From: Pirellulales bacterium
GTDB taxonomy: Bacteria > Planctomycetota > Planctomycetia > Pirellulales > Lacipirellulaceae
DNA length: 64,000 bases
Direction: 5' to 3'
Assembly (NCBI GenBank): GCA_019636345.1
Contig: JAHBXQ010000010.1
Coordinates: 1-64,000, forward strand
The notes beneath the pieces are model-generated. The model worked only from the letters and a program-made list of their open reading frames with translations. It searched no databases and was not told the origin of the DNA. Numbering within the stretch: the stretch's first letter is position 1; each line of letters begins with the position of its first letter. The position numbers were made by a program, and so were the translations under genes. Positions 14,078-29,044 of the stretch are shown in pieces.

Positions 14078-14095
14078 GCTCCCGTAGCTCAGGGG
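14078..14095 (+). pseudogene. Stranded 5' end of tRNA-Arg carrying attL core
   Basis: GCTCCCGTAGCTCAGGGG reads as a tRNA 5' acceptor strand plus the start of the D arm, and then breaks off. Its first seven bases (GCTCCCG) can pair with the acceptor 3' strand CGGGGGC of the intact tRNA-Arg at 28934-29006, with one G-U pair. Bases 14083-14095 are identical to 28939-28951. This fits the original tRNA 5' end, cut off from its 3' part when the element integrated. The original promoter would lie just upstream, where TGATAC occurs near 14012. Confidence 0.7.
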
Positions 14096-14164
14096 CGTGT
14101 CACACGGGTAGCGTATGACGCTGGTTTTCTCAGGTTTTCTCGACTCGAAGCGATCGCCGCGTAT

Positions 14165-14219
14165 CCGTCGTTCACCGTCGTTTCCCGTCGTCATCCAAGT
14201 TTTTACTGCCTTACTGCCA
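14165..14219. repeat. Left-arm repeats: three 10-bp CCGTCGT repeats, then two TTACTGCC
   Basis: CCGTCGT occurs at 14165, 14175 and 14185, exactly one helical turn apart. It is followed by TTACTGCC at 14203 and 14211; a further TTACTGCCA lies at 14289. The same TTTACTGCCA occurs twice near the other end (28858 and 28870). This layout suits arm-type binding sites for the integrase and accessory factors. Confidence 0.5.
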
Positions 14220-14311
14220 AGTTTCAGTGAACGTACAGGCAGTCACTCATATCCTGGATGCTACGAGGGCGTGGTACTGGCCCACAGCTTACTGCCAGGG
14301 CGGTCGCGACA

Positions 14312-15172
14312 ATGGGCAAGCACTACGTTCCACAAGCACACTTGAAGCGGTTCCAGATCGCCGAGGAACCCGGCATGATTTGGATGTACGACAAGCAGAC
14401 GGACAACTTCACGAAGGCAGCAATCTCGAAGGTTGCTCAGCAGGCAGACTTCTACTCGCCCGATGTCGAAGAATCCCTTGCCCAGGTCGTCGAGAAGCCA
14501 GGAAACAAGGGGCTTGCGAAACTCCTGAATCGGGAAGAACTCGACAACAAGGAACGAACAGAAGTTTCGTTCTACCTGCTCAACATGGCCTCGCGAGGGC
14601 CACGCTATCGGGCAATCATCGAACGAATCGCCCAGGAACAGCTTGATGAGGTGGACAAGGAAACCCGCAAGACGATCGAAGATTGGATCAGCGAGGGCGG
14701 ACCCGATCTCGAACTAGCGAAAGCTCGCCTCGCGGAACTCGACGCCGTGCGAGAGAAATTCAGCAAGAACCTCCCGCAGCAATTAGTCGATCAGATTCGC
14801 ACTCCATTCTGGAGTGAACGCACGGTCGAGTGCATTCACAACATGGCGTGGCATATTCTTCCCGCGACACCAGATCAGCACTTCGTCACGTCAGACACGC
14901 CCGCCCACTTCTTTGAGGGCCCAGGACTTTGCACGAAGCAATCGGAGTTCACGTTCCCGATCTCGAAGGACTTCGCCCTGGTCGGGGAGCATCAGCGATC
15001 TTGGGGAACGACCTTTGAGACGCCGCAGTTGCGACTGGTCAAAGAAGTGAACCGTCGCGTACTTAGCTACGTGCAACGGTTTGCGTTCTCGCCACACCCG
15101 CACGACTGGATCAGGACCGTGGTCCAAAAGAAGAAGCCGACGGTCCGTCAGATAGTGTGGATTTCTCGATAG
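14312..15172 (+). CDS. DUF4238 family protein
   Basis: The 286-residue protein starts at MGKHYVPQAHLKRFQ, the hallmark opening of DUF4238 (K-x-H-Y-V-P-x-x-x-L-x-x-F). Later family blocks include the central WSERTVECIHNMAWHI, PDQHFVTSDTPAHFF and the FPISKDFALVGEH segment. The function of the family is not established; members are often found on mobile elements. It is the first gene inside the left boundary and the only rightward gene in that half. ATG 14312 was chosen because the conserved domain begins there. Confidence 0.85.
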   Translation: MGKHYVPQAHLKRFQIAEEPGMIWMYDKQTDNFTKAAISKVAQQADFYSPDVEESLAQVVEKPGNKGLAKLLNREELDNKERTEVSFYLLNMASRGPRYRAIIERIAQEQLDEVDKETRKTIEDWISEGGPDLELAKARLAELDAVREKFSKNLPQQLVDQIRTPFWSERTVECIHNMAWHILPATPDQHFVTSDTPAHFFEGPGLCTKQSEFTFPISKDFALVGEHQRSWGTTFETPQLRLVKEVNRRVLSYVQRFAFSPHPHDWIRTVVQKKKPTVRQIVWISR

Positions 15173-15184
15173 CCTTACCGGGGG

Positions 15185-15538
15185 TCAGGCTTCCCGCCGG
15201 AGTTCGATCGCGCGGCGCTCCTGCGGGGTGTTCGACAACTGCCCCGAGTCAGTCACGATCGCGACAAGCTGGTCCGCGATCTCGTGGTATTGATCCTGCG
15301 GCAGACGGTCCGACAGCAGGACGCAAATACGTTGCACAAGGGCCTGCCCGAAACGGAGCATAGCTGCCCGCGACATGAAACGGTCGCGGGTCACGTCTTC
15401 GCGGGTGGCCTCACGGCAAGCCCGCACGTGGCTATCGACCAAAGCCTTCACCAAGCCGACGTTACCGCTGGCCTCGGCAGCTTCGATCAGGCGTTCGAGT
15501 CGATCAATCTGTGGTTTAATTCTATTGTCGTCGTTCAT
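15185..15538 (-). CDS. Small helical protein of unknown function
   Basis: This 117-residue protein (MNDDNRIKPQIDRLERLIEAAEASGN...) is predicted nearly all-helical with an N-terminal coiled-coil-like stretch. No domain was recognised. It is the last gene of a leftward run of small element genes and converges on the DUF4238 gene, their stop codons 12 bases apart. A structural or DNA-packaging accessory role is conceivable from position only. Confidence 0.6.
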   Translation of the reverse strand: MNDDNRIKPQIDRLERLIEAAEASGNVGLVKALVDSHVRACREATREDVTRDRFMSRAAMLRFGQALVQRICVLLSDRLPQDQYHEIADQLVAIVTDSGQLSNTPQERRAIELRREA

Positions 15539-15584
15539 CTTTAAGAAGGCCGCTGCCGCCGAAGCGGCGAGCGGCGAAAAGGGT

Positions 15585-15896
15585 TTATCTGAAGTAACTC
15601 GCGCTCAGTTTGCATCCGGTGTTGGGCGGCGCGACTACGCGAATCTTGCGGATGTCGTCTAGCGTCAACTCCAAACGATGCGACTCATAGAGCCGCACGC
15701 CACGGTCAACGGCAGCGTCCTCGCCGTCCATCGACACCCAAACGGCCGAGCCGAGCGAATCAATGTTCGCCAACAAGACCATGCGAGCGCCAGCAGCGTG
15801 CGCATTGTCAACGTCCGGTAGCTGCTGCGAAGTGTCCGTAATCGTTGCCGTCGAATGCCCAAGGCAGACCACGGTCGCGGGTTTCACTTGTTCCAC
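15585..15896 (-). CDS. Small beta-rich protein, phage-accessory-like
   Basis: The 103-residue product begins at a GTG codon preceded by GAGGTGA, an RBS that overlaps the stop of the upstream gene (15901), so translational coupling is likely. The sequence has alternating beta strands and phrases such as AARMVLLANIDSLGSAVWVSMDG and RGVRLYESHRLELTLDDI. These recall small phage head/tail accessory proteins that describe a value with a reference surface. The resemblance is weak and by eye only. The function is unknown. Confidence 0.55.
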   Translation of the reverse strand: MEQVKPATVVCLGHSTATITDTSQQLPDVDNAHAAGARMVLLANIDSLGSAVWVSMDGEDAAVDRGVRLYESHRLELTLDDIRKIRVVAPPNTGCKLSASYFR

Positions 15897-15900
15897 TGTG

Positions 15901-16161
15901 TCACCTCGCGAGGATATGAAGGTAGTTGGCGGCGTCGTCATCGCTCGCCGTGGCGAACAACGTGACATGCGGCCCGATGCCCTTGGTATCAAGCCGCAAC
16001 TCGCGGCCGACGGGAAGGCCGGGCGACACTTGATTTGGGGCCACGAAGAACTCGGCTTCAGAATCGGGAGCCGGTCGCAAGACGATTTCGGTGAAGGCAG
16101 TCAAGTTAATGACGGCGGGGACCGTGCCGCATAAGACACGATCGGTCACAAAGGGAGCCAT
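15901..16161 (-). CDS. Small protein of unknown function, coupled upstream
   Basis: This 86-residue protein from ATG 16161 (MAPFVTDRVLCGTVPAVINLT...) shows a beta-rich pattern similar in style to its downstream neighbour. Its start lies 16 bases inside the end of the preceding gene, and its stop is 5 bases from the next start. A GTG at 16173 is an alternative start. No family was recognised. Confidence 0.55.
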   Translation of the reverse strand: MAPFVTDRVLCGTVPAVINLTAFTEIVLRPAPDSEAEFFVAPNQVSPGLPVGRELRLDTKGIGPHVTLFATASDDDAANYLHILAR

Positions 16162-16421
16162 CGGAGATACCACGCGCGCTTATTAGGCTGCCGTGGCGAA
16201 GGGGTGCAGTGGATCGAAGGCGGGACGAGCGCTGCACCGTCAGCAGCGACGGCACGGCGGGTAACGGGCGGCAGGTCGGGGACGGGATGCAATCCGATAC
16301 CTGCGGCGAACAGGGCGCGACGGTCCCCAACCTGCCCGCGACAGAGAATGTCTTGCCGCCGACAAAGCTCTGCATAGAGTGGCGAGCTTTCGTTGGGAAA
16401 CTCGCTGATATGTTGGGTCAT
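16146..16421 (-). CDS. Small protein of unknown function, ATGA-coupled
   Basis: ATG 16421 overlaps the TGA of the upstream gene (ATGA), so it is probably translated by termination-reinitiation. The 91-residue product (MTQHISEFPNESSPLYAELCRR...) has no recognised domain and contains two CxR-type Cys. The upper part looks coding; the tail after about residue 55 is Pro-rich and less certain. Confidence 0.5.
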   Translation of the reverse strand: MTQHISEFPNESSPLYAELCRRQDILCRGQVGDRRALFAAGIGLHPVPDLPPVTRRAVAADGAALVPPSIHCTPSPRQPNKRAWYLRWLPL

Positions 16422-17245
16422 TGGTCCCCCCACGCAGGAGCAAGGGCCGCGACTTCTTCGGGAGCTTCATCGGCGGGCCAGGAGTGCATAACGCGGTTGC
16501 CCTTGTCACCAGGGCGAAGAACCTCGATCGTCTCGCCGTTGAGTCCACGCGAACGTGAAACTTTGTCGCCGGGCTTGACGAATAGACTGCCCTCGAACGA
16601 GGCGTCGGGCTTCAGGACTTGGAGTCGTTGCAAGGCGCGATCGTATTCGGATTGCGCGGCCTTAACGCGCTCGTCTTGCTGCGCGTCGAGCGAGGCAGTC
16701 GCGGCCTCGCTCATTTCGCGGAACCTTCCAAGATCGCCTTCTTTGGCTTGCCGCAACATTTGCTCGGCCGCCAGCACGGCACTCTGCGGCTGGCTTGGAT
16801 CGAACATCACCCGTTCAAGATGGGCCTCGGCCCATTCGATAGCAGCATCGCGCTTGGGATCGGCCGGAGCCGGCTCCCGATCGGCCCAGTCCTTCTTCGC
16901 CTGCTTGTAGATGCGCTTCCGAGCGTTCCGCGCCATGTCGAGATCGCGATCGCCGACGCTGGATTCCGGCACGTCGTCGAAGGGGTTGACCTCGCGTTTC
17001 GTCTCGACGACGAACGGACGCCAGTTGCTCGCGGCGGCCCGTGCTCGCGCGTCCATATCGTTCGGGTGTTCGACGCCACGGCGCATGGTCAGTTCGTCAA
17101 GCTCGCGACCTGCTAACTGCTCCCGCCGTTTGACTGTTGCATCGGCGAACTTAACGGCCTCGTCGCGCGTGCCGAAGCGCCGACCGAAGACACTGAAATA
17201 GGTCTTGCCGTTTGTGTGAGCTTGTGTGATTTCAAACTTTCTCAT
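16418..17245 (-). CDS. Charged helical protein of unknown function
   Basis: This 275-residue protein (MRKFEITQAHTNGKTYFSVFGRRF...) opens with a beta motif resembling an arm-type DNA-binding or AP2-like fold in phage recombinases. A long helical, strongly charged middle (about 70-210) and a KOW-like loop (FVKPGDKVSRSRG) follow near the C-terminus. The family was not recognised. It heads the coupled set of small genes, with the next gene starting inside its stop codon. Confidence 0.6.
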   Translation of the reverse strand: MRKFEITQAHTNGKTYFSVFGRRFGTRDEAVKFADATVKRREQLAGRELDELTMRRGVEHPNDMDARARAAASNWRPFVVETKREVNPFDDVPESSVGDRDLDMARNARKRIYKQAKKDWADREPAPADPKRDAAIEWAEAHLERVMFDPSQPQSAVLAAEQMLRQAKEGDLGRFREMSEAATASLDAQQDERVKAAQSEYDRALQRLQVLKPDASFEGSLFVKPGDKVSRSRGLNGETIEVLRPGDKGNRVMHSWPADEAPEEVAALAPAWGDQ

Positions 17246-17264
17246 TGATTGCTTTCATTCGTGC

Positions 17265-17534
17265 CTAATCAGTAGCCGTCGCGACCGGGCACGTACCGGC
17301 GCGAAGCTCTCTTAAAACGCCCCGGATGTAACCAGGACCGAAGTCGCGGAAGAGAGTGATTGACCTACCGTTCTGCGATAAAACGATGCAATCGCCGCTG
17401 GCGTCAACGTCCGCATCGACCACGATGCCGCGCTTGCGGCACCAGTCGAGAAAATCGCAGTGACGACAGAAGACTCGCTTCGCCTCGCGGCGAGCGTCAC
17501 CAGGGCGCATGCGCCAAAACGGTATGGGAATCAT
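17265..17534 (-). CDS. Small basic protein with Cys/His cluster
   Basis: This 89-residue product (MIPIPFWRMRPGDARREAKRVFCRHC...) has C-R-H-C followed by WC and a later C, a possible small metal site. No family was recognised. It ends 19 bases before the next gene, so co-transcription with the downstream small genes is likely. Confidence 0.5.
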   Translation of the reverse strand: MIPIPFWRMRPGDARREAKRVFCRHCDFLDWCRKRGIVVDADVDASGDCIVLSQNGRSITLFRDFGPGYIRGVLRELRAGTCPVATATD

Positions 17535-17548
17535 GGTGTCTCCATTAA

Positions 17549-17730
17549 GGCCCGATCATCGGGGGCCAGCCCGCATCGCGCAGGTATGGACCGCGACAAC
17601 GAGTAGCGGTCCTATGCTTGATTCGTGCGAGCCGGGGTGCGGGAGGATGAACACCCCGGCTCGCTGCTCAACGCCGCGTGAACTCGGCGGAGCAAGGTGA
17701 TAAGGTGCCCGCTCTGTTACCAGAGCGGGC
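17549..17730. other. Cluster of inverted repeats in an intergenic gap
   Basis: Within the 221-base gap between two leftward genes are several consecutive palindromes. They are CCCGATCATCGGG at 17551-17563, GGACCGC/GCGGTCC at 17588-17612 (11-base loop), a perfect 13-bp pair GCGAGCCGGGGTG/CACCCCGGCTCGC at 17627-17664 (12-base loop), and a perfect 10-bp pair GCCCGCTCTG/CAGAGCGGGC at 17707-17730 (4-base loop). None has a T-run. They could be terminators, a structured small RNA or a DNA-processing site. Confidence 0.6.
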
Positions 17731-17755
17731 CGGCATTGTGCCGCTGGCGCAAGTA

Positions 17756-18082
17756 TCAGTTGGCGTCGATGTACGCCTTGACCCGTGCGATCGCGTGGCC
17801 CGCTTCGATGAACAGCGGCACGACGGCCTCGCTGAGGCCGAACAGGTGAACCAGGTCGATCTCGATGTCGCTCTGCAAAAGGTTGCGATCGCCGCCGAGG
17901 TAGTACCAAGTGTCCGTCGCCTGGTCGTACCACGGCAGACCTTGCTGGTCGATCAGTAGAAGTCTCTCATACTCAGCGTGCTCCGCAGGAGTAGCGCGTC
18001 GCTCGGCCTCGCGGCCGTGGTGCCAATGTCCGGCGTCGCATAGCGTCATTTCGCGTTGTTTGTTGTAGCTAACGAGTCTCAT
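17756..18082 (-). CDS. Small acidic protein coupled to the primase-helicase
   Basis: The 108-residue product starts with ATG overlapping the TGA of the upstream primase-helicase gene (ATGA). It contains PWYDQATDTWYYLGGDRN and a C-terminal helix. No family was recognised; coupling suggests a partner in element replication. Confidence 0.55.
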   Translation of the reverse strand: MRLVSYNKQREMTLCDAGHWHHGREAERRATPAEHAEYERLLLIDQQGLPWYDQATDTWYYLGGDRNLLQSDIEIDLVHLFGLSEAVVPLFIEAGHAIARVKAYIDAN

Positions 18083-19503
18083 GCAGCCCTCTCAAGCTGG
18101 ATCATTTTTCCGCGCTTAGTGCGCTCCTCGGGATACGTTGCCGAGACGCCGTGCAGTCGCAAGTAAGGCTCGACACGATCGACCGCCGCGCGGACCTGCG
18201 CGATATTCGGCGTCGCCACGCCAAACTTCGTGGCGAACTCAGCGGCCGTGCCCTTCCAGGTCTTCCGACCGCCCATGAACTCGATGATCTGGTGAGCGAG
18301 GGCCGGCGTGCTGTCGGCCTGGATGCGCTGCTTGCCCGCTGTATCCACGACGGGGATGCGAAGACGGCCCGTGATCGGCGGCAGTTCCAGGTGAAGCATC
18401 GCGTGCAGGAACGCGGGCGCTTCAGCCTTCAGCCGTTCGAGAAGAGCGGGCTTGGCGATGTCTTCCGCCGGCCGCTTCACTTCCAGCACCGTGAACCGCG
18501 TATCTTCGATCGGAACGATGCAGGCCCCGTGATCGTTCGCGGTCTGAACCCAGTGCGTGTAGTTTGGCACTTGGTACGTGTCCGTGTGCATCCGTCGGAT
18601 CGACAGCACGGGGCTCGTCACCGCGTCTTTGATCTTGGCCAGCACGCCGCCGTAGTTGCTGATGTTCTTCTCTTCCACTATCGCCAGGACGGTTCCTTCA
18701 AGCTCACCGTTGAAGTCAGACTGACTCGTCAGAGCGCGGTCGGCCTTGAAGACGCCGGTCATCAGCAGTTCGAGCGACTCCCAGAATACCGATTTTCCGC
18801 TGTTCTCGGGACCGTACAGGAACAAGTACGGGAGTCGGCACGTCGGGTCTTGCAGCATCGCGGCAATCCACTGCTGCATGTACGCGCGCCCGCCGACGCT
18901 ACGGCCGATATGGTCGTGGATCATGTTCCACGTCGAGTAGTCGCCCTCGACTGGCTCGCACAAGAAGCGAGCCGCCCCGAAGTTCCACTCACGGACGCCG
19001 GGATACTCGCGACCGAACGGAATGCAAACCTGCGTCCAGGGGTGAAGCTCAAGATGCCCCATCGCCACTTCGGCGTCCGGCTTTCGGAGTCCACGGGATT
19101 GCAGGATGGTCTTGATCGCGCTCGGCGACTTGTAGGACCAGGTGCCATCGTTCTCTTGCGCCAACCAGCAGCCAAGCTCACCGGTGCCGTTCGGGGTGAT
19201 TCGCCGCAGGCGGCGGATGTAGTCGAGATCAAACGCGGCTGAAAGCAGCAGCGTCCACCAGCCGGATCGCGTCGTAGAAGACCAGTTGCAGTCCGTGTCC
19301 GACTTGCGGGCGCGGGCGCTCAGGTGAAGTCCGCTGACGATGTACTCGGCAACGATGCCCCGGCCGTGAAGAACAGGCGGGACTTTGATGCCGTGGCCGT
19401 ACTTCGCGGCCAGTTGTTCGATGGCTTCAGGCTTCGAGAACTCGAAGCCGGTTTTCGTTTCGGTGCCGCCGAGATCGCGGCACACCTCGGAGAAGGTGAA
19501 CAT
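18079..19503 (-). CDS. Primase-helicase of the SF3 / P4-D5 type (DUF5906-like)
   Basis: This 474-residue replication protein has a Walker A at residues 231-238 (GPENSGKS), an acidic Walker B-like segment (TVLAIVEEKNI), and a sensor region (THWVQTANDHGACIVP) with the SF3 Asn. These match the helicase domain of phage P4/D5-type replication proteins. The N-terminal 200 residues contain aromatic-rich segments but no recognisable catalytic primase triad, so it may be helicase-only. GAGGAA sits just upstream of the ATG. Together with the iteron-like repeats immediately upstream, it is probably the element's own initiator. Confidence 0.75.
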   Translation of the reverse strand: MFTFSEVCRDLGGTETKTGFEFSKPEAIEQLAAKYGHGIKVPPVLHGRGIVAEYIVSGLHLSARARKSDTDCNWSSTTRSGWWTLLLSAAFDLDYIRRLRRITPNGTGELGCWLAQENDGTWSYKSPSAIKTILQSRGLRKPDAEVAMGHLELHPWTQVCIPFGREYPGVREWNFGAARFLCEPVEGDYSTWNMIHDHIGRSVGGRAYMQQWIAAMLQDPTCRLPYLFLYGPENSGKSVFWESLELLMTGVFKADRALTSQSDFNGELEGTVLAIVEEKNISNYGGVLAKIKDAVTSPVLSIRRMHTDTYQVPNYTHWVQTANDHGACIVPIEDTRFTVLEVKRPAEDIAKPALLERLKAEAPAFLHAMLHLELPPITGRLRIPVVDTAGKQRIQADSTPALAHQIIEFMGGRKTWKGTAAEFATKFGVATPNIAQVRAAVDRVEPYLRLHGVSATYPEERTKRGKMIQLERAA

Positions 19504-20048
19504 GGTTCCTCACGGGTGACTGAGTTGACATAGGGTGGTCCCCTGGTGAATGAGGATGAGGGATGAGGGATGCAGGATGAACAGGGGCCGCCCGGCCGAT
19601 GCCGACCGGGCGGCCGAGTGCGGGGACCAGCCACACCCTTGAGGATCAGTGACGCGAAGTTAAGGGTTTTCGGTCGATTAACTCCGACTTCCAAAACAGC
19701 ACCCTTCGTAAGCCATTGTCACGTCGGGCGTTAGGTGGTCGCGGGTGCTAAAGGTGCTGTTGGTGCTGTTTTTGGACCCCTTTGGTCTCTTATATGGTGT
19801 TTTCTCAGGAAAAATGCTTGAAGAGCAAAGTAGGTGTCTAAAACAGCACCTTTAGCACCCCATTTGCAGTTTTCCTCGGGAAATACGTAGTTCTGAGGGG
19901 TGCGGATCGGCTCCAAAACAGCACCCTACCGTTAACTTTGAGGCCCGATCGTTAACTGACATCAGAACCGTGGACTTTAGGCGGGACATACCCACCCTGG
20001 TCACAAGCTCTGAGGGACACGAACGGCTGAATCACAACATTCGTCGCG
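19504..20048. other. AT-richer intergenic region holding iteron-like repeats
   Basis: These 545 bases separate the sigma-like gene from the primase-helicase. The segment 19690-19930 is AT-rich by local standards and holds the repeats listed separately, plus two TTTTC-TC/GGGAAA-like imperfect palindromes near 19803 and 19871 and two GTTAACT copies near 19930 and 19950. It looks like a replication origin or promoter/operator region. Confidence 0.5.
19691..19927. repeat. Iteron-like repeats with core AACAGCACC
   Basis: CCAAAACAGCACCCT occurs at 19691-19705 and 19913-19927. A variant (TAAAACAGCACCTTTAG) occurs at 19838-19854. Two inverted copies (GGTGCTGTT at 19753 and GGTGCTGTTTTTGG at 19762-19775) are head-to-tail. 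Five copies in about 240 bases directly upstream of a helicase gene suggest initiator binding sites. Confidence 0.6.
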
Positions 20049-20864
20049 TCACGCCGCCGCTTTCACGCCCGGCACCGTCCAGTGCTCCCGCAAGTAGATC
20101 AGTCCGGCCCGGTGAACCCACGGCGGGGCCGTCCGGTAGACAACCTCGGCCAGCCGATCCAGTCGATACCGCAACGTCGATCTCGCCATACCGACCGATC
20201 GCGCGATCGCAGCGATGTCCGGCTCGTTGTCGTCGGACTGCTTGATACGGGCGAACGCCAAGCGCATCCGAGGATCGTTGCCGACGTACTTCCACGCCTG
20301 TTGCTCGACCCACGCCTTAAAGTTGTCGTATTCTTCGTTTCGGCGGCCCCTTTGATACGGCCGGGCAACGAAGTTGTCGCCGATGCTGGTCGTCCGATAG
20401 TGCGAGTCCGAGTCCAACTCGAACGGGAAGTCCGCGTCCTGCGGCGGCATGACCGGGTTGTACACCCCGTCCTCGGCATCACCGTGCTCGTAATGATAGT
20501 AGACGCGCTTGTGGAGGCTCTCAAAACTACGGTTGCGCCTTCGCGTTCTGGCACACGGGCCGAGTCCGCATGGACGCAGGAGATCATCCACGCTTTCGGT
20601 GACGACGCGCTTCGCCATCACGTACAGGAAGCCGCCGATGTTCTCGATGTCGCCGTGAAGAAGCCGAGCGACCGTCTTACCGACCAAGGCCGCCACGTCG
20701 CTCGCCACGTCATCCGCGAGCCACTGATGCGCGCGCAGATTCCGACGTTTCAGCAGACTGAAGACCGTGTACCGAACAAAGTCCTTCGCGCCACGAAGGA
20801 AGTCTTCGATGTCGCGATCGTTGCGAGTCGCGATGGCTCGCCTGTGCAGTTCGTCCAAGTCCAT
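20049..20864 (-). CDS. Sigma-factor-like DNA-binding regulator
   Basis: This 271-residue protein starts at MDLDELHRRA. The segment WLADDVASDVAALVGKTVARLL with GGFLYVMAKRVVTES resembles sigma-70 region 2 helices, and the C-terminal DIAAIARSVGMARSTLRYRLDRL is a helix-turn-helix like region 4. The frame is open upstream to 21077, so an earlier start is possible; no strong RBS decides. A regulator of element genes, or an anti-host transcription factor, is inferred. The family was not firmly identified. Confidence 0.55.
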   Translation of the reverse strand: MDLDELHRRAIATRNDRDIEDFLRGAKDFVRYTVFSLLKRRNLRAHQWLADDVASDVAALVGKTVARLLHGDIENIGGFLYVMAKRVVTESVDDLLRPCGLGPCARTRRRNRSFESLHKRVYYHYEHGDAEDGVYNPVMPPQDADFPFELDSDSHYRTTSIGDNFVARPYQRGRRNEEYDNFKAWVEQQAWKYVGNDPRMRLAFARIKQSDDNEPDIAAIARSVGMARSTLRYRLDRLAEVVYRTAPPWVHRAGLIYLREHWTVPGVKAAA

Positions 20865-21208
20865 GATGTGGTGGATCTCAGGTGCTTCGTGGTGGATAAG
20901 TCCGCAGTAAGGTGACACCGCTTTTTCGATTTGTTGCGTCGCGTTTCGCAGATTCTTGGGCGCGTAGTGTCTCCCTATGGACGTGACACGTACCAATCCC
21001 CGAATGCTGCGTCTCGTTTCACAGATTCGACGCGGCCCCACTTCTGCGACCTCGACGTTTGAGCCAGGAGGAAACACCCCTGTTCCGGTCGCATCACCGT
21101 CACAGACATCGCCAGCGGGCCTCGTGGGGGCTCACGATCGACGCTAGGGCAGTCCGCTGGCTCGCGCGGTTGTCATATCTAACGCGGCGATGCCATTTGT
21201 AGCCACGG
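20865..21208. other. Intergenic region upstream of the sigma-like gene
   Basis: If the sigma-like gene starts at 20864, this stretch is non-coding, although its frame stays open to 21077. It ends with a perfect inverted repeat TTGTAGCC-AC-GGCTACAA (about 21197-21214), which overlaps the end of the next leftward gene and could be a terminator. Confidence 0.35.
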
Positions 21209-21628
21209 CTACAACTCACTGAGGCGGCCTAGGTGATACAACCGCCACAACCGGAATCTCCCGATCCCAAGCTCCCGCGCGGCCGAGCGCAGCGACCTGA
21301 ACTTCCGACCGCCGATCTCGACGGCCACGATGGGCTTCGATCCTCGGTAAGCGCGACCCATCAACACTGTGCAGCCCTGGTCGCGACGTAGGCGACGGAC
21401 CAGGCGAGCCGTCTGCGCTGCGGTTGATCGCTCGAACGGAATCCCAGGAACCAGGGACCAGTCAAGCTCTGGCCGTTGATCGGCGAGCGCTGAAGCGAGC
21501 TTGCTGCCTGGTGCTGCCTGGTACGTCGCCCACGGCTCGTGACCGTCGCCGTAGAGCACCGCGCACCGACCGTCCGGCCATCGCCACTCCCATAGTCGGT
21601 GCGAGGGAGTACATCCATCTCGACCCAT
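21209..21628 (-). CDS. Unknown protein with C-terminal NUMOD1-like helix
   Basis: This 139-residue product starts MGRDGCTPSHRLWEWRWPDG. The C-terminal FRSLRSAARELGIGRFRLWRLYHLG resembles the NUMOD1-type DNA-binding helix found in homing endonucleases and phage proteins. No nuclease motif was seen. It diverges from the recombinase gene, 115 bases between their starts. Confidence 0.5.
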   Translation of the reverse strand: MGRDGCTPSHRLWEWRWPDGRCAVLYGDGHEPWATYQAAPGSKLASALADQRPELDWSLVPGIPFERSTAAQTARLVRRLRRDQGCTVLMGRAYRGSKPIVAVEIGGRKFRSLRSAARELGIGRFRLWRLYHLGRLSEL

Positions 21629-21743
21629 ATAATAAGACCTTTGTATCTCGAAATTGTTACGCTTTCCGGCAACTCACCGGATCGCGGCGTGATATGCTTG
21701 AATAAACGGCAACTTTGTCTCGACTTTGCTGGAACTCGCAACA

Positions 21744-22259
21744 ATGACTCCCGACGACGTGAAAGCCTTGATTTCGGCGACCAGGACCACAGCAACACAG
21801 GATCGGGCGATCCTGGACCTGCTGCTGCACAGCGGCCTTCGCTGTGCTGAACTGTGTGACCTGCGCGTCTCAGACGTGCAGGGCGACACGCTCACCGTGC
21901 GCAAGGGCAAGGGCGGCAGACGCCGAGTGATCCGGCTCGCCCGAACCTACGGCCACTGGGAGCTTCACCTTCGCGCTTGCAGCGCTGGTCCTGATGACTT
22001 CGTGTTCAGGACCAGGACGGGAGAGAAGTTAGCCACGTCGCATATAAGGCGCATGGTGGGCCGCTTGGCACGCAAGGCTGGCGTGGCAGGTGCGCATCCT
22101 CACGCTTTCCGCCACGCTCACGCCTGCTGCGTTTACGATGGCATTGGCGATCTCGCGACCGTGAGCCGCCAGCTTGGCCATGCGAGACTCAGTACGACGG
22201 ACACGTATCTTCGCGGCCTCGGCGTGAGCCTGGACGCCGTGGCTTCGCTAGCGTTCTAA
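21744..22259 (+). CDS. Xer-like tyrosine recombinase, catalytic domain only
   Basis: The 171-residue protein starts at MTPDDVKALISA and covers only the catalytic domain. All active-site features are present: Arg in GLRCAELC, a Lys-rich beta hairpin (VRKGKGGRR), H-A-F-R in HPHAFRHAHA, His in QLGHARLS and the Tyr in TDTYLR. The N-terminal SAM-like core-binding domain of XerC/D is absent (usual length about 300). It may work with a partner, control integration, or be a remnant. It lies in the middle of the element, away from both ends. Confidence 0.8.
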   Translation: MTPDDVKALISATRTTATQDRAILDLLLHSGLRCAELCDLRVSDVQGDTLTVRKGKGGRRRVIRLARTYGHWELHLRACSAGPDDFVFRTRTGEKLATSHIRRMVGRLARKAGVAGAHPHAFRHAHACCVYDGIGDLATVSRQLGHARLSTTDTYLRGLGVSLDAVASLAF

Positions 22260-22388
22260 ACGAGAGAATGAGCGGTGCGGTAGGGGGGGGGTCTATTGAT
22301 GAGTTGACAATCCGATTTACACGGCACGCAATGTGCAGCCCTATTGTGGGTATTCTCGGGGAAACGCCAGCTTGAGACGCGGCGAATC

Positions 22389-23069
22389 TCAAGTGGCCTC
22401 AGCGTCAGTGCGAGGGGGCAGGTATCGCTTCGTAAGGCGCTCGTGTACCTCGGTGAGACTCCATTCCTTGATCTCACTGGACGTGCTCGACTTGCCGCCC
22501 TGGCGCAGGTGAACCGTCATGGTCCCGACGCTGATCCGACCGCGATTGTAACCGAGGGGCGGCAGGACGCTGGCCAGCCGTTCGGCATCGTTGTCCCGTT
22601 TGTTCAACGATCCCCACGAGAAGTGCGCCGCCACCTTATCCCTGAACGCGCCCACGTCCGGGATAATCCGTTCCGCATAGTCCTTCGGCAAGGGCCGCGA
22701 GTCGTCCAGCCGCTTCGCGATCGCGCCAACCAGGCGAACGAACTGAACGGCCGAGATCGCATACCAGTGGAACGCCATCGTCAGCAGGGGCGTTGCACCC
22801 CGGATCGCTTGCGGCAACCGTCCGAACGAGAACAGGCCCTCGACCTTGATCTTCATGTCGGGAGCGAATGAGAAGATTTCTTCGCTCCCAGATTCGACGG
22901 ATTCCTTCGCAGTCTTCTCGCAACTCGCGACTTGCGAGTTCAAGTATTCCAAGCCATGCCACAGGCATTGAAGCGCCCAGTATTCGTTCGTCGGCTCCCG
23001 GAACACGTCGCCGGGGACCACGATCTTGTCGGTGTACTCCAGCGTCGTCGTCGTCGGTTCGTCGGTCAT
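22389..23069 (-). CDS. Unknown helical protein with RX5H (HEPN-like) motif
   Basis: This 226-residue protein starts at MTDEPTTTTLEYTDK. It is mostly helical and carries R143-D-K-V-A-A-H149 in PDVGAFRDKVAAHFSW, matching the Rx4-6H motif of HEPN-fold ribonuclease-like proteins, which are frequent in defence and toxin systems. The preceding helix (HWYAISAVQFVRLVGAI) fits the four-helix bundle. The assignment is by motif only. The gene faces away from the zinc-ribbon gene at 23174. Confidence 0.5.
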   Translation of the reverse strand: MTDEPTTTTLEYTDKIVVPGDVFREPTNEYWALQCLWHGLEYLNSQVASCEKTAKESVESGSEEIFSFAPDMKIKVEGLFSFGRLPQAIRGATPLLTMAFHWYAISAVQFVRLVGAIAKRLDDSRPLPKDYAERIIPDVGAFRDKVAAHFSWGSLNKRDNDAERLASVLPPLGYNRGRISVGTMTVHLRQGGKSSTSSEIKEWSLTEVHERLTKRYLPPRTDAEAT

Positions 23070-23173
23070 AGCGGTAGGACGCGGGTGATCGACCAGTAGG
23101 TTCACGCCTTGAGGCCGGCTACGGTGTCCTGGATAATACGGCCACGATAACTTCAACTCGATCGGACGGACCT

Positions 23174-23593
23174 ATGCCAACATACTACTGCCATAAGTGC
23201 GGCCTGAGCGAGGGCCATGTCAAGCCGGACGTGCACGCCAACCTCACCGGCGAACAGTACCAGCTAGAAAAGTTCATCAAGCACACGGCTCCGACCGGCC
23301 AATACAAGGTCAACTCGATATTTGCCGATCCGAGCTACAAGAAGTACGCCGATTACATCGTGACCACGACTGCTTCGGGCTACGTGGAGATCGACGATAA
23401 TCAGCGCACGAACATTGTCTGGTTCGCATCAGAGAAGGCCGGAACGAAGTACGTCAAAGGCGCTTTCAAGTGCGACCAGAGCGGCGTCAAGGTTGTTTTC
23501 CATGACGACAGCACGAAGATTCATGCTTTCGCCGCCGAAGTGAATTTCGGCACGAAGACTTGCGCCAAGTGCGGCGCGTCGATCCCCTACTGA
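23174..23593 (+). CDS. Small double zinc-ribbon-like protein
   Basis: This 139-residue product starts MPTYYCHKCGLSEGH and ends with CAKCGASIPY. The two CxxC knuckles at the termini probably bind one or two zinc ions around a beta-rich middle (about residues 40-125). No family was recognised. It is a single rightward gene between leftward genes. Confidence 0.6.
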   Translation: MPTYYCHKCGLSEGHVKPDVHANLTGEQYQLEKFIKHTAPTGQYKVNSIFADPSYKKYADYIVTTTASGYVEIDDNQRTNIVWFASEKAGTKYVKGAFKCDQSGVKVVFHDDSTKIHAFAAEVNFGTKTCAKCGASIPY

Positions 23594-23642
23594 AGAGTGC
23601 GATGCGCGTGGTCGAGAACTTGAAACAAATTCTCTTGTACTG

Positions 23643-25031
23643 CTAATCAGCAGGTTTGGCGTTCTTCCCCTCCACGTGAGCGAGAATCTGGCCCTTCAAT
23701 TCTTCAAGTGCTAGCTCCTTCGTCTCGTGCCAGTTCTCGGGCAATAGATAATCGCCACGCTTATCTGCACCGTGAAAGTCCGCTAACGTCCGGTGCGAAC
23801 CAAGTACGGCTTGCGCCGCCCAATCATTGTCGATCGTGTCCCTGGCGACACAGATAGTCCACCCACGAAAATGGGCAAGGTGATTGTCGGTGAACACCGA
23901 CACCGTGCCACCGACGAAGTGCAACTCGCCTTCGGCCCAAGGCTCGAACTCTACGGCCTTGTACGTTTCGGTCGGAACCGCAGCCAAGTGCGAATACTTG
24001 CCTTCGGCGGTGAAGCTAACGCAGCCACGCTGTATCAAGAAGCCGTCGGGCGACTCGACGTAGTATTGCTTCTCATCCGAATCGTACCAGTGTCCTGTAG
24101 TTTCGCCGGTATCGAAGCGTTTAGCGTCGAGCGGATGAGTGGCGAACGGATTGAGGCAGATATGCAATCCGTCGAGCAACGATTCCTCGTATGATTCTCT
24201 AGCCGTCGAGATCATATGCGGTTCGGTGCCGTGTTCGTTGTATCTAACCGCCATCATCGTTACTGGAAACGGACCGGTTTTCGCCAGTGCGCGAAGTTTG
24301 CCGAAGGTCGCGGTATTCGAGAAAATAACAGCGCTTACTTCGGCCATGTCGGGACGTGTGAAAAACCCAAGCGGGATCGTGGCACCACTGTCCTTCTTCA
24401 CGTCATTCATTACAGCTTCGCCGACGACCAGCCGCTCTTGACCATCTTCTCCCGGCAGCCAAAGTGGCTGATCGAAGCCGTAAAGCACACGACGAAGTGC
24501 ATGATCGTTCTGCACGAAAAACAGCGGCTGCTCGAACGGCGCAACGCAGATTACAAAAGGCAGTCCCTCGACGTGCGGCAGCTTTGAGTAGGACTCCAGA
24601 TACTTGCAATGCTTCGCCCAGATCGCGTTCGCGAGCCGTATTGTCGCGAGGTGTAGCACAGCATCTCGATCGAAGGTTTCAAAATCTTCGCGAGACTTGT
24701 ACCACTCCGGCTTGTATCCCTCAGCGTGTCCAGCAATTACCGCCTCGGCACAGATACGCTGCTCAGGGGATTGCAGAAGAAAGTCCGGTGCAGGATGCGA
24801 AAAATCGCAAGTGAATCCAAGCTCACGGAATGCAGCGTGAAGGTACAACTCCCAGAACGAGGAATTGAATGTCGTCTGAAACTCAGTGACGAACTTGCCG
24901 TCGCGATCCACAAAGCCGTTGGCCCAATCTGCCAGGACCGCTTGTTCCCGCTCTGCGAATCCGGGCGCAATGACTGCGCGGAAATTTGGGTGCAGCCGGT
25001 CGTCGGCAACTACTGGTTCAAAAAGTTTCAT
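23643..25031 (-). CDS. Unknown protein with possible PD-(D/E)XK nuclease core
   Basis: In this 462-residue protein, residues 55-100 read SSFWELYLHAAFRELGF, then PAPDFLLQ and ICAEAV. This is the spacing of the PD-(D/E)XK fold: helix Glu61, Asp83, Glu96. The usual Lys is replaced (E-A-V), so it could be inactive or use a variant site. Residues 140-462 form a mixed alpha/beta C-terminal region of unknown type. It is the last gene of a leftward four-gene run (winged-helix-like, RHH, 2TM, this protein). A role in DNA defence is inferred from fold and context only. Confidence 0.5.
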   Translation of the reverse strand: MKLFEPVVADDRLHPNFRAVIAPGFAEREQAVLADWANGFVDRDGKFVTEFQTTFNSSFWELYLHAAFRELGFTCDFSHPAPDFLLQSPEQRICAEAVIAGHAEGYKPEWYKSREDFETFDRDAVLHLATIRLANAIWAKHCKYLESYSKLPHVEGLPFVICVAPFEQPLFFVQNDHALRRVLYGFDQPLWLPGEDGQERLVVGEAVMNDVKKDSGATIPLGFFTRPDMAEVSAVIFSNTATFGKLRALAKTGPFPVTMMAVRYNEHGTEPHMISTARESYEESLLDGLHICLNPFATHPLDAKRFDTGETTGHWYDSDEKQYYVESPDGFLIQRGCVSFTAEGKYSHLAAVPTETYKAVEFEPWAEGELHFVGGTVSVFTDNHLAHFRGWTICVARDTIDNDWAAQAVLGSHRTLADFHGADKRGDYLLPENWHETKELALEELKGQILAHVEGKNAKPAD

Positions 25032-25105
25032 TCCGTGATCCCGGTCGGAAGGGATGCCGTTCCTCAGACAGACGCTGGGGGACCGCGGATGGTTCGCAAT
25101 CCGGC

Positions 25106-25417
25106 CTAACCGGTGTTGCGGTCGCCAAGATAGTAGCCGATTGCGAGCGTGATGAGCGGCAGAATTGACGACAGCATGAACTTCACCAGTTCCACGCCGC
25201 CGTCAAACGTCGCATCCTTCATGCGCATCAGACAGAAGACAATCACGAAGCATAGAAGGTAGACACAACCGAAGATGCTGAGTACCCACCTAGCCATGTG
25301 CAGCGACGCTGCCTGATCGAAGCTCGGTTCCGTCACGACGGGGAGGCGCTCCCATACCTCTTCGTCGTCGATGTCTACTTTCGGGAGCTTCTGCGGATCG
25401 GTTCCACCGTTCATCAA
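25106..25417 (-). CDS. Small two-transmembrane protein
   Basis: This 103-residue protein has an acidic cytosolic N-terminus and two predicted membrane helices (about residues 44-64 and 78-97), ending in IGYYLGDRNTG. It starts 5 bases after the stop of the RHH gene with AGGAG upstream, so the two are co-translated. Small 2TM proteins are common as effectors or sensors in defence cassettes. No family was identified. Confidence 0.6.
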   Translation of the reverse strand: MMNGGTDPQKLPKVDIDDEEVWERLPVVTEPSFDQAASLHMARWVLSIFGCVYLLCFVIVFCLMRMKDATFDGGVELVKFMLSSILPLITLAIGYYLGDRNTG

Positions 25418-25422
25418 GTCTC

Positions 25423-25635
25423 CTATTCGTCGAGAATCCCGACGATCTCTTTGACAACCTGCCCGTCCTTCACGACGGCAATCTGATTCTTCTGCTCGCG
25501 CTCACGCAGCGCAACCTTCAGCAACGACAGCGCGGCCTTCAGCACGCCGGCCTTCGTCGTTCCCAGTTCTTCGGCCATTTCCTCCAAAGATTGATTCTGT
25601 CGTTCCGTGAACTGCACGTTCAGTCGCGTCGCCAT
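25423..25635 (-). CDS. Ribbon-helix-helix (CopG/Arc-like) regulator
   Basis: This 70-residue protein begins with an N-terminal strand (TRLNVQFTERQNQSL) followed by two helices, the layout of RHH DNA-binding proteins. It probably represses its own operon. It lies 35 bases after the upstream 393-residue gene and 5 bases before the 2TM gene. Confidence 0.75.
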   Translation of the reverse strand: MATRLNVQFTERQNQSLEEMAEELGTTKAGVLKAALSLLKVALREREQKNQIAVVKDGQVVKEIVGILDE

Positions 25636-25670
25636 TGTCCACTCCCTTGTTATTGCTTAGTTCACACGGA

Positions 25671-26852
25671 CTAAATTAGGAATCCGAACTTCGCAATGAT
25701 CCTGTCCCGTTGCTGAACGAGTTGGTCCAGGTCGAAGTCTTCGCTTCCAACGCTGGTAAACTTCGCCAAGCAATACTGATACCGAGCGATGCCACGCATC
25801 GACACGTAGTACTGCGTGCCATGCTTTCTGAAGAATCCTTGCTGCACAAGACGATCGTCGAGATCGTGGCGCAGCTTGTCTCGTTGGACCTTGTAGCCGA
25901 ACTCTTTAGCGAGGGAGTGCGTGAAGTCTTTGCACTCCCAAAGCTCCAGCGTCTCAGACTGAAGCTGGCGCGACGCCGCAAGAGCGAGCATGATGAGCGT
26001 TCGGCCGCCACGGCACGGAGGTACGCCCTTGAAGAGTGCGTTGTCGATCTGGCCCGGCAGCGTGAATAGGGAGTCTTGGTTTTCCCTCAGTTGATCTGCG
26101 TAGTCGATCGAGTTTTTGCGGATTCGCTCTTCCGTCAGCATCAGTTTCCCATGCGACTTCTGGTTAAGTTCGACGTGATACAACTCGAAGTCCGGCAACT
26201 GGGGATGAACGACCAGGACCATCGTGACGACATCGGTGGTCGGGAACGCAGCGCGCATCTGCTTTTCGGCCGCAATCAGGCCCGACAAGTCTTTGTCGTC
26301 GATAGCGATGTCGCGGTAGACGACGCTGCGAAAAAGACTGCCGCTCTTGCGGCCCACACGATTCAGCGCGGAGTCGTGGACGTTCTTGCTGGTAACGACC
26401 TGAGTTAACCAGATTGCATCTTCTTTGACGCCCACAACGTCGATCATCGCCAATGGCTCGCCGAGCTTCTGAATCTGCTCATGCGACAACTGCGACGGTT
26501 TCCCAGTCGCGCGCGCGATCTGATCGAGAATCGGTGCGGAGTACTTCTTCTTAACTTTATGCCAAACGAGTGTATGAACTCCGTGGACCTGTAAGTCTTC
26601 GATGTTCGCCAGCAACCACGCGGCGCGACCGCACTCGCGATCGTTGGTCTCCATATTGTGACCCGTGATGCTGGTGATCTCTTCGTAGCTCGGTGGTTCC
26701 TGGAGCGCTCGACGATACAGGTGCTCCATTTCCTTGAACGGCACGTCCATGTCGCCACGGGCGTAAGTCGCGAGCGTGGCTAGCGACGTGGCGAGTTCCT
26801 CGAACACCATCGGATTCGTGTTAGCTACCGCGATTCCTAGCTCGGACATCAT
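25671..26852 (-). CDS. Unknown protein with C-terminal winged-helix-like segment
   Basis: This 393-residue protein starts with two Met codons (26852, 26849) behind AAGGGAG. The N-terminal 130 residues are helical. The middle (about 135-270) has strand-helix alternation with VVTSKNVHDSALNR and VVTMVLVVHPQLPDFE. The C-terminal DDRLVQQGFFRKHGTQYYVSMRG looks like a winged-helix wing. No family was recognised. It heads the four-gene leftward operon and faces a promoter region rich in inverted repeats. Confidence 0.55.
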   Translation of the reverse strand: MMSELGIAVANTNPMVFEELATSLATLATYARGDMDVPFKEMEHLYRRALQEPPSYEEITSITGHNMETNDRECGRAAWLLANIEDLQVHGVHTLVWHKVKKKYSAPILDQIARATGKPSQLSHEQIQKLGEPLAMIDVVGVKEDAIWLTQVVTSKNVHDSALNRVGRKSGSLFRSVVYRDIAIDDKDLSGLIAAEKQMRAAFPTTDVVTMVLVVHPQLPDFELYHVELNQKSHGKLMLTEERIRKNSIDYADQLRENQDSLFTLPGQIDNALFKGVPPCRGGRTLIMLALAASRQLQSETLELWECKDFTHSLAKEFGYKVQRDKLRHDLDDRLVQQGFFRKHGTQYYVSMRGIARYQYCLAKFTSVGSEDFDLDQLVQQRDRIIAKFGFLI

Positions 26853-27048
26853 CTACTCCCTTCAAAGATCGGCCGTGATGGCCTTGGGTGATGTCCCTAA
26901 ATTACACCTTTTTGGTGAATTGCACAACATGCAAAATGTGCGCGAACTGCCCGGCCAATCCGTAAGTCCTTACCGTTAATAGGAATGCGTCAAGCCATTT
27001 TCTGCTTATCGGCCTTGATTCCATGGACCTGTGCTTCATGCTTCAGGT
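26853..27048. promoter_or_regulatory. Divergent promoter region with inverted repeats
   Basis: This AT-rich gap contains CACCTTTTTGGTG at about 26907-26919 and GCACA-N10-TGTGC at about 26922-26941. Both are close to the start of the leftward operon, which encodes an RHH protein. These are candidate operators. Between them, AATTTAGGG-type A/T-rich sequence may hold a -10 element. Confidence 0.4.
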
Positions 27049-27273
27049 ATGGACCACGAACGATACAAGCGAATCGAAGCCGGGATGATTCACCGGGTAG
27101 GCGTCGTCGAAACGGCCATCGTTGCCGGCCAGCCGATACCGCCGCAGGACGGCAACTGGCGCATCGGCGACTTGATGATCCTCGTTACCGTCGCCTGTAA
27201 GGTGATGCGCGACTACAAGGGCGATCCCGACGAATATGGCATCGAAGGGTTCATCCGAGGGCTGGCCGAATGA
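27049..27273 (+). CDS. Small protein of unknown function upstream of the excisionase-like gene
   Basis: This 74-residue product starts MDHERYKRIEAGMIHRVGV. It has no recognised domain and an acidic C-terminus (YKGDPDEYGIEGF). Its TGA overlaps the ATG of the next gene (ATGA), so translation is coupled. An upstream ATG at 27031 is possible. Confidence 0.5.
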   Translation: MDHERYKRIEAGMIHRVGVVETAIVAGQPIPPQDGNWRIGDLMILVTVACKVMRDYKGDPDEYGIEGFIRGLAE

Positions 27274-27716
27274 ACTTCCAGAAGCTCCTACGTGATCTCG
27301 AACAGGCTCCCGACGATGTCGCGGACGAGTACGTCGCCGGCATCGTCAACCAGGTGTCCGAGTGGGCGGCCGCCAATGGTCACGCCGCCCTGGTCCGCGA
27401 ATGGACGCCTGCGGCGACCCGCCTTGAAGCTCGCCGCTATCTCGCGGAAGCGATCGCGGCGACCAAGACGGCTCCCAACGATGAACTGCTGACGCTGGAT
27501 CAAGCCGCCGACATTCTCGGCTACAGCGCGAGCGGCTTGCGAAAGATCATCACTCAAACGAAGGCCGGCAAGCCAGGCATTCAGTTCTCGCAGATTGGCA
27601 ATGGCCCGATCAAGTTCAAGCGTGAATGGCTTGACGAGTTTGCCGTCGCCAACTCGACCATGCCACGCCAACCGCGCCCGCGTGTCGAGCCGCAGCATTT
27701 AAAGCCGCCGCGCTAG
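27270..27716 (+). CDS. Excisionase-like helix-turn-helix protein
   Basis: In this 148-residue protein, LLTLDQAADILGYSASGLRKII in the middle is a MerR/excisionase-type HTH, followed by a wing-like strand (GPIKFKREWLDEF) typical of recombination directionality factors. It sits tail-to-tail with the integrase near the element's right end, the usual place of such a factor. The N-terminal 80 residues are helical and of unknown role. Confidence 0.65.
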   Translation: MNFQKLLRDLEQAPDDVADEYVAGIVNQVSEWAAANGHAALVREWTPAATRLEARRYLAEAIAATKTAPNDELLTLDQAADILGYSASGLRKIITQTKAGKPGIQFSQIGNGPIKFKREWLDEFAVANSTMPRQPRPRVEPQHLKPPR

Positions 27717-28837
27717 ACTGCTTCCCATAGCGGTTCGCTGTAGTGGTCGCACCATTGCAGATAGTGGTCGCGGCAGACTTCTGGCGTATTGCCCATGAGC
27801 TTCGCCAGTGTTTCGATGTTGGTCGCCTTACCCGACCAGTACCCTTGCAAGATGCGCTTGGCGTAGGTGTGCCGGCAACTGTACATGACGCAGTCGGCAT
27901 CAAACTCGATACCTTGATTGCTGACGCGCGCCTTCAATTTGCGAAACTTCTCGCCCAATAGCTCACGTGTCCACGGTCTGCCTTCCGCGTTGCGGAAGAT
28001 TGGGCCGCTTCGGTGGCGCTGGGCTTGCTTCCGAACGATCTTGATTATCTCGGGATCGGTAATCCGAATCGTGCGCAGGTTTCGCGTCTTGCTTTCGTCG
28101 CTCTTGAACACCCACTCCATACGCTTGCCTTGGTCGCGCACATGTGCGGCCGTGAGCTTGGCAAACTCGCAACCAGGTCGCGCGCCGGTGCGGATGCAAA
28201 CTTTAATTGCTTCGCCTAGCGCGGCATTTGCTTCCGCGATTAGCGCCTTCTCCTGCTCCGGCGTGATGTAGGTCACGCGAGCGCGCTGCTTCGGTGTCTT
28301 GTAGCCCTTGATCGGGTTCAAGGGAATCAAGCCCGCCTCAACCCCGTAGTTGAACGCTCGTTTGACCGCCTGAATCTTGGTGCGTCGCGCTCCCTTCCAC
28401 CTAGGGTGAGCTTGTAGCCAGCGATCCAGGTGGATCGGCTTCAACTCGGAGACGGGGAACTGCCCATAGCCCTTGTGGATATAGTCCTTCGCCGTTGGCG
28501 TCCCCTTGCGGCGGAACCGTCCGGGCAGCCCGTAGCAAAGATCGTAGAGAGTGTCGCCGCGACCGGCGTAGGTTGCGGGCGCGCCTTCCGCCTTCACCTT
28601 GGCAAGGTAGGCATCACACACGTCCAGCACGGTCACGCCGTCCCCGGGCTCGGGCTCTTCTGGTGCCTTGGCTCGCTCTAGCGCGGCCTTCAGCACGGCC
28701 GCCGGCGTCGTCTTGCTCTTGAGGGCCTGGCCGTCATCATCGACCAGCCTTTTCATCCGGCCTTCAACTTGCGCGTACCATCCCCGCCCGGTACGATAGA
28801 AGTAGCCACGATTCCGGCTGCCGGAGTTGCGACCCAT
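27713..28837 (-). CDS. Tyrosine integrase of the element
   Basis: This 374-residue site-specific recombinase has an N-terminal arm-binding domain opening with YFYRTGRGWYAQVEGR, a core-binding domain and a catalytic domain. The catalytic part has Arg in RTGARPGCEF, R-H-T in MYSCRHTYAK, the His-position variant LMGNTPEV and the Tyr in CRDHYLQ. Two active-site positions differ from the textbook H-x-x-R and H/W (Tyr and Asn), a variation often seen in planctomycete integrases. It lies next to attR, and its start codon faces two TTTACTGCCA arm-like sites. Its stop codon overlaps that of the excisionase-like gene. Confidence 0.88.
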   Translation of the reverse strand: MGRNSGSRNRGYFYRTGRGWYAQVEGRMKRLVDDDGQALKSKTTPAAVLKAALERAKAPEEPEPGDGVTVLDVCDAYLAKVKAEGAPATYAGRGDTLYDLCYGLPGRFRRKGTPTAKDYIHKGYGQFPVSELKPIHLDRWLQAHPRWKGARRTKIQAVKRAFNYGVEAGLIPLNPIKGYKTPKQRARVTYITPEQEKALIAEANAALGEAIKVCIRTGARPGCEFAKLTAAHVRDQGKRMEWVFKSDESKTRNLRTIRITDPEIIKIVRKQAQRHRSGPIFRNAEGRPWTRELLGEKFRKLKARVSNQGIEFDADCVMYSCRHTYAKRILQGYWSGKATNIETLAKLMGNTPEVCRDHYLQWCDHYSEPLWEAV

Positions 28838-28857
28838 GAGAAAGCCTACGTCGAAGA

Positions 28858-28879
28858 TTTACTGCCATATTTACTGCCA
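28858..28879. repeat. Right-arm direct repeats TTTACTGCCA
   Basis: Two copies 12 bases apart (28858-28867, 28870-28879) lie between the integrase start and the tRNA core. The same core occurs at the left arm (14203, 14211, 14289), suggesting integrase arm-type sites. Confidence 0.5.
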
Positions 28880-28933
28880 CAGGCTCCATTTTACCTTGAA
28901 AAACGCCCATAACTAAGCGAAAAGTTACACGTG

Positions 28934-29006
28934 GCCCTCGTAGCTCAGGGGATAGAGCAGCGGTTTCCTAAACCGCGTGTCGCAGGTTCGATTCCTGCCG
29001 GGGGCG
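28934..29006 (+). tRNA. tRNA-Arg (anticodon CCT)
   Basis: This 73-base cloverleaf has a 7-bp acceptor stem (GCCCTCG with CGGGGGC, one G-U), a D arm, the anticodon stem GCGGT/ACCGC with loop TTCCTAA (anticodon CCT at 28967-28969), and T arm GCAGG-TTCGATT-CCTGC. The discriminator is G and CCA is not encoded. Its 5' 18 bases differ from the stranded host copy at 14078 in three positions. They therefore appear to have been supplied by the integrated element while the 3' part is original host sequence. Confidence 0.95.
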
Positions 29007-29044
29007 CTTTGTCGAGGGACCGCGCCGATGTGACGCGACCCTCG

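Follow-up and report, generated by a model that had tools for sequence, protein, structure and literature searches.

The question raised by the stretch of DNA analysed here (the window, 64,000 nt of contig JAHBXQ010000010.1 from a Pirellulales bacterium) is what a cluster of short repeats does directly upstream of a helicase gene. An earlier reading made from the letters alone (the sequence-only reading) had proposed that the repeats were the replication origin of an excisable element. Our computational analyses point the same way: an integrative element of 14.9 kb spans about 14083-28951, and its replication origin very probably lies at positions 19650-19960. This reading is strongly supported because the layout of the region recurs upstream of homologous helicases with unrelated iterons, and a helicase resembling those of the Staphylococcus aureus pathogenicity island SaPI5 and of phage NrS-1, together with real attachment (att) sites, makes it the best supported of those considered.

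The repeat AACAGCACC was present in five exact copies, three on the plus strand (19695, 19842 and 19917) and two on the minus strand (19753 and 19762), and nowhere else in the window. The number that the sequence-only reading had reported, in both orientations, was thus far above the shuffle expectation of 0.30 copies per whole 64-kb window (standard deviation 0.5, maximum 2 in 100 shuffles). Genome-wide, 112 copies in 5.18 Mb corresponded to about 0.005 expected per 237 bp. When the intergenic region was shuffled 5000 times with its dinucleotides preserved, the copy number of a 9-mer was never higher than 3. The arrangement was ordered, with inner copies on the minus (19753, 19762) versus the plus strand (19842), further copies outside them and GTTAA boxes outermost (19659, 19677, 19931 and 19951). 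A perfect 19-nt gapped dyad (19743-19761 / 19842-19860, gap of 80 nt) held the inner iterons and a partial AGCACC in its arms. The AT-richer setting was also borne out, since the repeat region includes those 237-bp segments whose GC content is lowest in the window (50% versus 64.5% for the window) and the core at 19771-19840 had a GC content of 40%. The TTTTC/GGGAAA palindromes of the same reading, however, turned out to be no more than an imperfect inverted repeat (76%; 19797-19817 / 19866-19886), and nothing marked them as important. No DnaA box was found in the window origin, while that of the homologous locus L027 has one (TTATTCACA), and a search for antisense RNA with Rfam matched tRNA only. 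As had been claimed, the repeats lie directly upstream of the replication gene, which starts at 19503 on the minus strand. The features of the region are:

18079-19503, minus strand: 474-aa superfamily 3 (SF3) ring helicase (DUF5906), proposed origin-binding initiator (Pfam, AlphaFold2, structure matches)
19659-19682, no strand: left outer GTTAAG/ATTAAC boxes, with similar boxes outside the iterons in loci L027 and L028
19693-19703, plus strand: outer iteron AAAACAGCACC (repeat count)
19743-19761, minus strand: left dyad arm, AACAGCACC plus partial AGCACC (inverted-repeat analysis)
19762-19772, minus strand: inner iteron AAAACAGCACC, in tandem with the left-arm iteron at a 9-bp step
19771-19840, no strand: AT-rich core, proposed melting site, 40% GC inside the most AT-rich stretch of the window
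19842-19860, plus strand: right dyad arm, AACAGCACC plus partial AGCACC (inverted-repeat analysis)
19915-19925, plus strand: outer iteron AAAACAGCACC (repeat count)
19931-19956, no strand: right outer GTTAAC boxes (base composition and box scan)

The 474-aa protein matched Pfam PF19263 (2.8e-14, 54.2 bits versus a cut-off of 27.6), and this family profile together with an SF3 AAA+ core (residues ~190-345) carrying the Walker A motif GPENSGKS identifies it as a DUF5906/NrS-1-type helicase. Its AlphaFold2 model had a pLDDT of 92.8, and the secondary structure of the last 75 residues (H-S-H-H-S-S) follows the winged-helix order, from which we infer a winged-helix-like C-terminus (400-474). In VIA-align, the top match of the model was the C-terminal region of the NrS-1 PrimPol-helicase (PDB 6k9c, 6k9e, 6lrb), the closest solved fold, which covered residues 92-471 (Z 23.6, 4.3 Å, 354 aligned); a separate profile search also reached NrS-1 (1.4e-9). 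The next match was the SaPI5 PriRep primase-helicase (Z 17.5). Many homologs were about 900 aa long with an N-terminal PrimPol domain, recognised by motif reading (GFDFDSITGHA, RRSTGG.G.HLYV), and the 474 aa aligned solely to their C-terminal half, the N-terminal archaeo-eukaryotic primase (AEP) PrimPol domain being absent. The gene product had been called an SF3 primase-helicase; the SF3 helicase part of this name stands, but because the protein has no primase domain it should read helicase. The same helicase-only short form occurred in five relatives (L027, L028, L029, L050 and L052).

Of the 196 genomes searched, 16 held a homolog of the helicase (a count that takes in the genome of the window), as did 136 IMG/VR stretches; the named records were mostly from Planctomycetota, Pirellulales among them. 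These named records came from an alignment-based scan, whereas a scan of the genome contigs with the single 474-aa protein gave no match. The closest homolog, in L027 (53% protein identity), was preceded by the iteron AAAACTACAGG in the same layout as in the window, namely an AT-rich core between inverted arrays, with further copies and GTTAA boxes outside. The layout was repeated with other iterons in L028 (AAAACTGC, 57-nt arms), L029 (CAAACCCTCA) and L036 (AACCCCCGA). Over 80 non-redundant loci, a dyad or iteron cluster (gapped dyad score of at least 14, or at least 4 copies of one 9-mer within 400 bp) lay upstream of the helicase in 41, versus 19 of 887 control segments taken from the same loci (odds ratio 48, p 3e-35, a nominal value since related sequences are not independent). 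The thresholds were fixed after the first loci had been viewed; most of the 80 loci were fetched later, and all were picked by protein homology. Dyads were upstream in 34 of 80 cases versus downstream in 3 of 75, and their cores were on average 14.7 points AT-richer than the locus (+0.147; 32 of 34 positive, p 1e-9). The origin DNA of the window itself had no match in the 43 other genomes of the family searched; the layout alone was common. Covariation between C-terminal domain and iteron was also considered and discarded as not specific, as pairs with the same iteron were more alike in both core and tail.

The repeats, dyad, AT core, conserved layout, protein fold and att sites are computed features, and a mechanism may be drawn around them. 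The integrase and an AlpA-like protein would excise the element as a circle, and the 474-aa helicase would bind the iterons through its C-terminal winged-helix-like domain, assembling as two rings on the oppositely oriented arrays. These rings would melt the AT-rich core between them, so that theta replication could start. This ring-on-array scheme is modelled on SaPI Rep and Cch2, in both of which the C-terminal domain binds the repeats of the origin (PMC7581432). Priming by host DnaG or another host enzyme is proposed because the 474-aa helicase lacks the PrimPol domain.

How does this origin compare with those already described? In phage P4 (alpha/ori), a satellite, replication starts from repeats and depends on an SF3 helicase whose C-terminal domain binds DNA; this likeness is one of description, and alpha differs from the window helicase in having a primase domain. 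The NrS-1 protein likewise carries the N-terminal PrimPol domain that is absent here, and the NrS-1 genome has, in place of an iteron dyad, an 8-nt recognition sequence in two copies (PMC7102993). The origins of phage-inducible chromosomal islands (PICIs) lie 3′ of rep and always contain an AT-rich region with a set of iterons on either side (PMC6092414). The window origin also has two iteron sets around an AT-rich region, the element also has a tyrosine integrase with a specific attachment site (an att pair in tRNA-Arg(CCT)), and the structural match to SaPI5 PriRep adds to the resemblance. For the AlpA-type regulator/excisionase of PICIs there is a weak candidate (phrog_66 1.4e-5, HTH_17 below cut-off). 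The host, in contrast, is a planctomycete, for which no helper phage is known. Phage-inducible chromosomal minimalist islands (PICMIs), satellites of Vibrionaceae, are defined by int, an AlpA-type gene and a primase/DUF5906-type replication gene (PMC10803314); the window element shares an integrase, a DUF5906-type replication gene and a putative AlpA-type gene with them, but PICMIs have six genes and lie near fis, whereas this element is 14.9 kb long and sits in a tRNA gene with defence cargo.

Several points weigh against an origin of this kind. The window repeats lie 5′ of the helicase and not 3′ as in PICIs, and no primase gene was found among the element genes scanned, the initiator itself having no PrimPol N-terminus. 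For these two reasons the element is not filed as a PICI, although its origin probably functions in the manner of a PICI/SaPI origin. At the thresholds used, an upstream dyad or cluster was lacking from about half of the homologous loci. The GC-skew extreme of the element fell at 19910, with an ambiguous sign that misfits a simple leading-strand G excess. Finally, binding, melting, priming, replication, excision and induction are steps that we infer.

Against this background, other explanations of the repeats were considered. They could be operator sites of the helicase operon, bound by the HTH (helix-turn-helix) proteins of the element (the 342-aa or the AlpA-like protein), since they occupy a large intergenic region just 5′ of the operon and an HTH-bearing gene adjoins. 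Regulation in place of replication is nevertheless improbable: the arrays are paired, inverted and separated by an AT-rich core of 70-80 bp, the layout accompanies the helicase in elements that differ in their other genes, and the helicase itself contains a winged-helix-like domain. The initiator might also regulate its own expression from these sites, which would be compatible with an origin. A partition (centromere-like) or dimer-resolution site is highly improbable. A small tyrosine recombinase (21726-22259) does lie nearby, and L052 has a serine resolvase close to its corresponding region, homologs of which occur in L029 and others, but a scan of the element proteins identified no ParA/ParB, the iterons adjoin the helicase gene and not the recombinase, and a dyad with an AT core is a layout typical of origins.

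There is also an unlikely, though appreciable, chance that the origin is real and the element a decayed, non-functional relic that has lost its PrimPol domain and tail genes. A tape-measure gene is missing here but present in the closest relatives (L027, L028 and L050), and the PrimPol domain is present in the long homologs. Such decay fits less well with the recurrence of the short helicase in the five elements named above, or with a helicase frame that is intact, a dyad kept perfect and both att sites still present.

The element that this origin would serve is inserted in the 5′ part of tRNA-Arg(CCT) and has a GC content of 59%, versus 66% for the flanks. Its other features are:

14078-14095, plus strand: attL, displaced 5′ end of tRNA-Arg(CCT), GCTCCCGTAGCTCAGGGG, with a 13-nt exact (16/18) match to 28934-28951
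15185-17534, minus strand: small-gene module (117, 135, 90, 95, 275 and 89 aa), five with same-order homologs downstream of the helicase in L027 and/or L028
20049-21077, minus strand: 342-aa protein with a C-terminal HTH, by reading a sigma-like regulator (weak HTH_30 2.2e-4, below cut-off)
21726-22259, plus strand: 177-aa tyrosine recombinase (PF00589 7.3e-28)
23643-25031, minus strand: PD-T7-5 anti-phage protein, cargo (PADLOC 1.5e-109)
27270-27716, plus strand: AlpA/excisionase-like HTH protein (weak; phrog_66 1.4e-5, HTH_17 0.0066 below cut-off)
27713-28837, minus strand: tyrosine integrase adjoining the tRNA (phrog_1 8.4e-29; 50% identity to the integrase of the L050 element)
28934-29007, plus strand: tRNA-Arg(CCT), whose first 18 nt are attR (ARAGORN, Rfam)

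The intact tRNA-Arg(CCT) was the sole match to the tRNA pattern in the genome. The left end (14078-14095) had two differences from the right copy and was identical to the 5′ end of tRNA-Arg(CCT) in the relative G019 (L182), so that the original end was most likely displaced to the left, and the new 5′ end supplied by the element. As the integrase targets the 5′ part of the tRNA gene, the element replaces the promoter side and must supply transcription of the tRNA. No empty attB was seen at the locus; in G001 a tRNA-Gly follows the flanking carboxypeptidase gene, and the left flank is not conserved. The host genome had no match to an HK97-type capsid (PF05065) or a tape measure (PF10145); a helper phage, if one induces and packages the element, would thus have to come from outside or belong to another type.

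Within the small-gene module, the 117-aa gene (15185-15538) was syntenic only; it was considered as a small terminase, but the similarity was not significant. This helical protein takes the place of an HTH protein in L027. In the same stretch (15185-16433), the 95-, 90- and 135-aa proteins read like phage decoration proteins, with their order kept in L027 and L028 and no family match. A DUF4238 protein (14258-15172, 2.7e-26) is encoded just within the left boundary of the element.

Related elements of about 13-17 kb carried a tape-measure gene: L050 (2916-6308; PHROG tail families), L027 (15381-17969; PF10145 and PHROG tail families) and L028 (755-3544; homolog). Judged by open reading frame length and a partial PHROG scan, they had no further recognisable gene as large as a portal, large-terminase or capsid gene, and they are possibly tail-modifying satellites. 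We tentatively propose, as a suggestion that could well prove wrong, that phage-related integrative elements form a large, so far undescribed group of phage satellites in Planctomycetota, and that they share their PICI-type origin with planctomycete phages. The elements of this proposed group are helicase-only or PrimPol-helicase replicons of about 13-17 kb, some with a tape-measure gene and with no capsid-sized gene. They point to satellite-like elements in Planctomycetota, and no description of planctomycete phage satellites was found in the literature searched. The layout had been described as unique to phage-parasitic islands and is now seen in Planctomycetota elements and many IMG/VR contigs, where it lies 5′ and not 3′ of the helicase gene and its iterons are unrelated. 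If planctomycete phages indeed share this origin, with fast-diverging iterons 5′ of the helicase, the layout would not be unique to PICIs. The diverged loci also constitute a natural set of initiator-origin pairs in which iteron specificity could be tested by swaps. In two IMG/VR stretches, L047 (1386-5021) and L048 (458-4093), the PrimPol-helicase genes looked by eye to be split within their PrimPol part by an insert that is in frame and resembles an intein.
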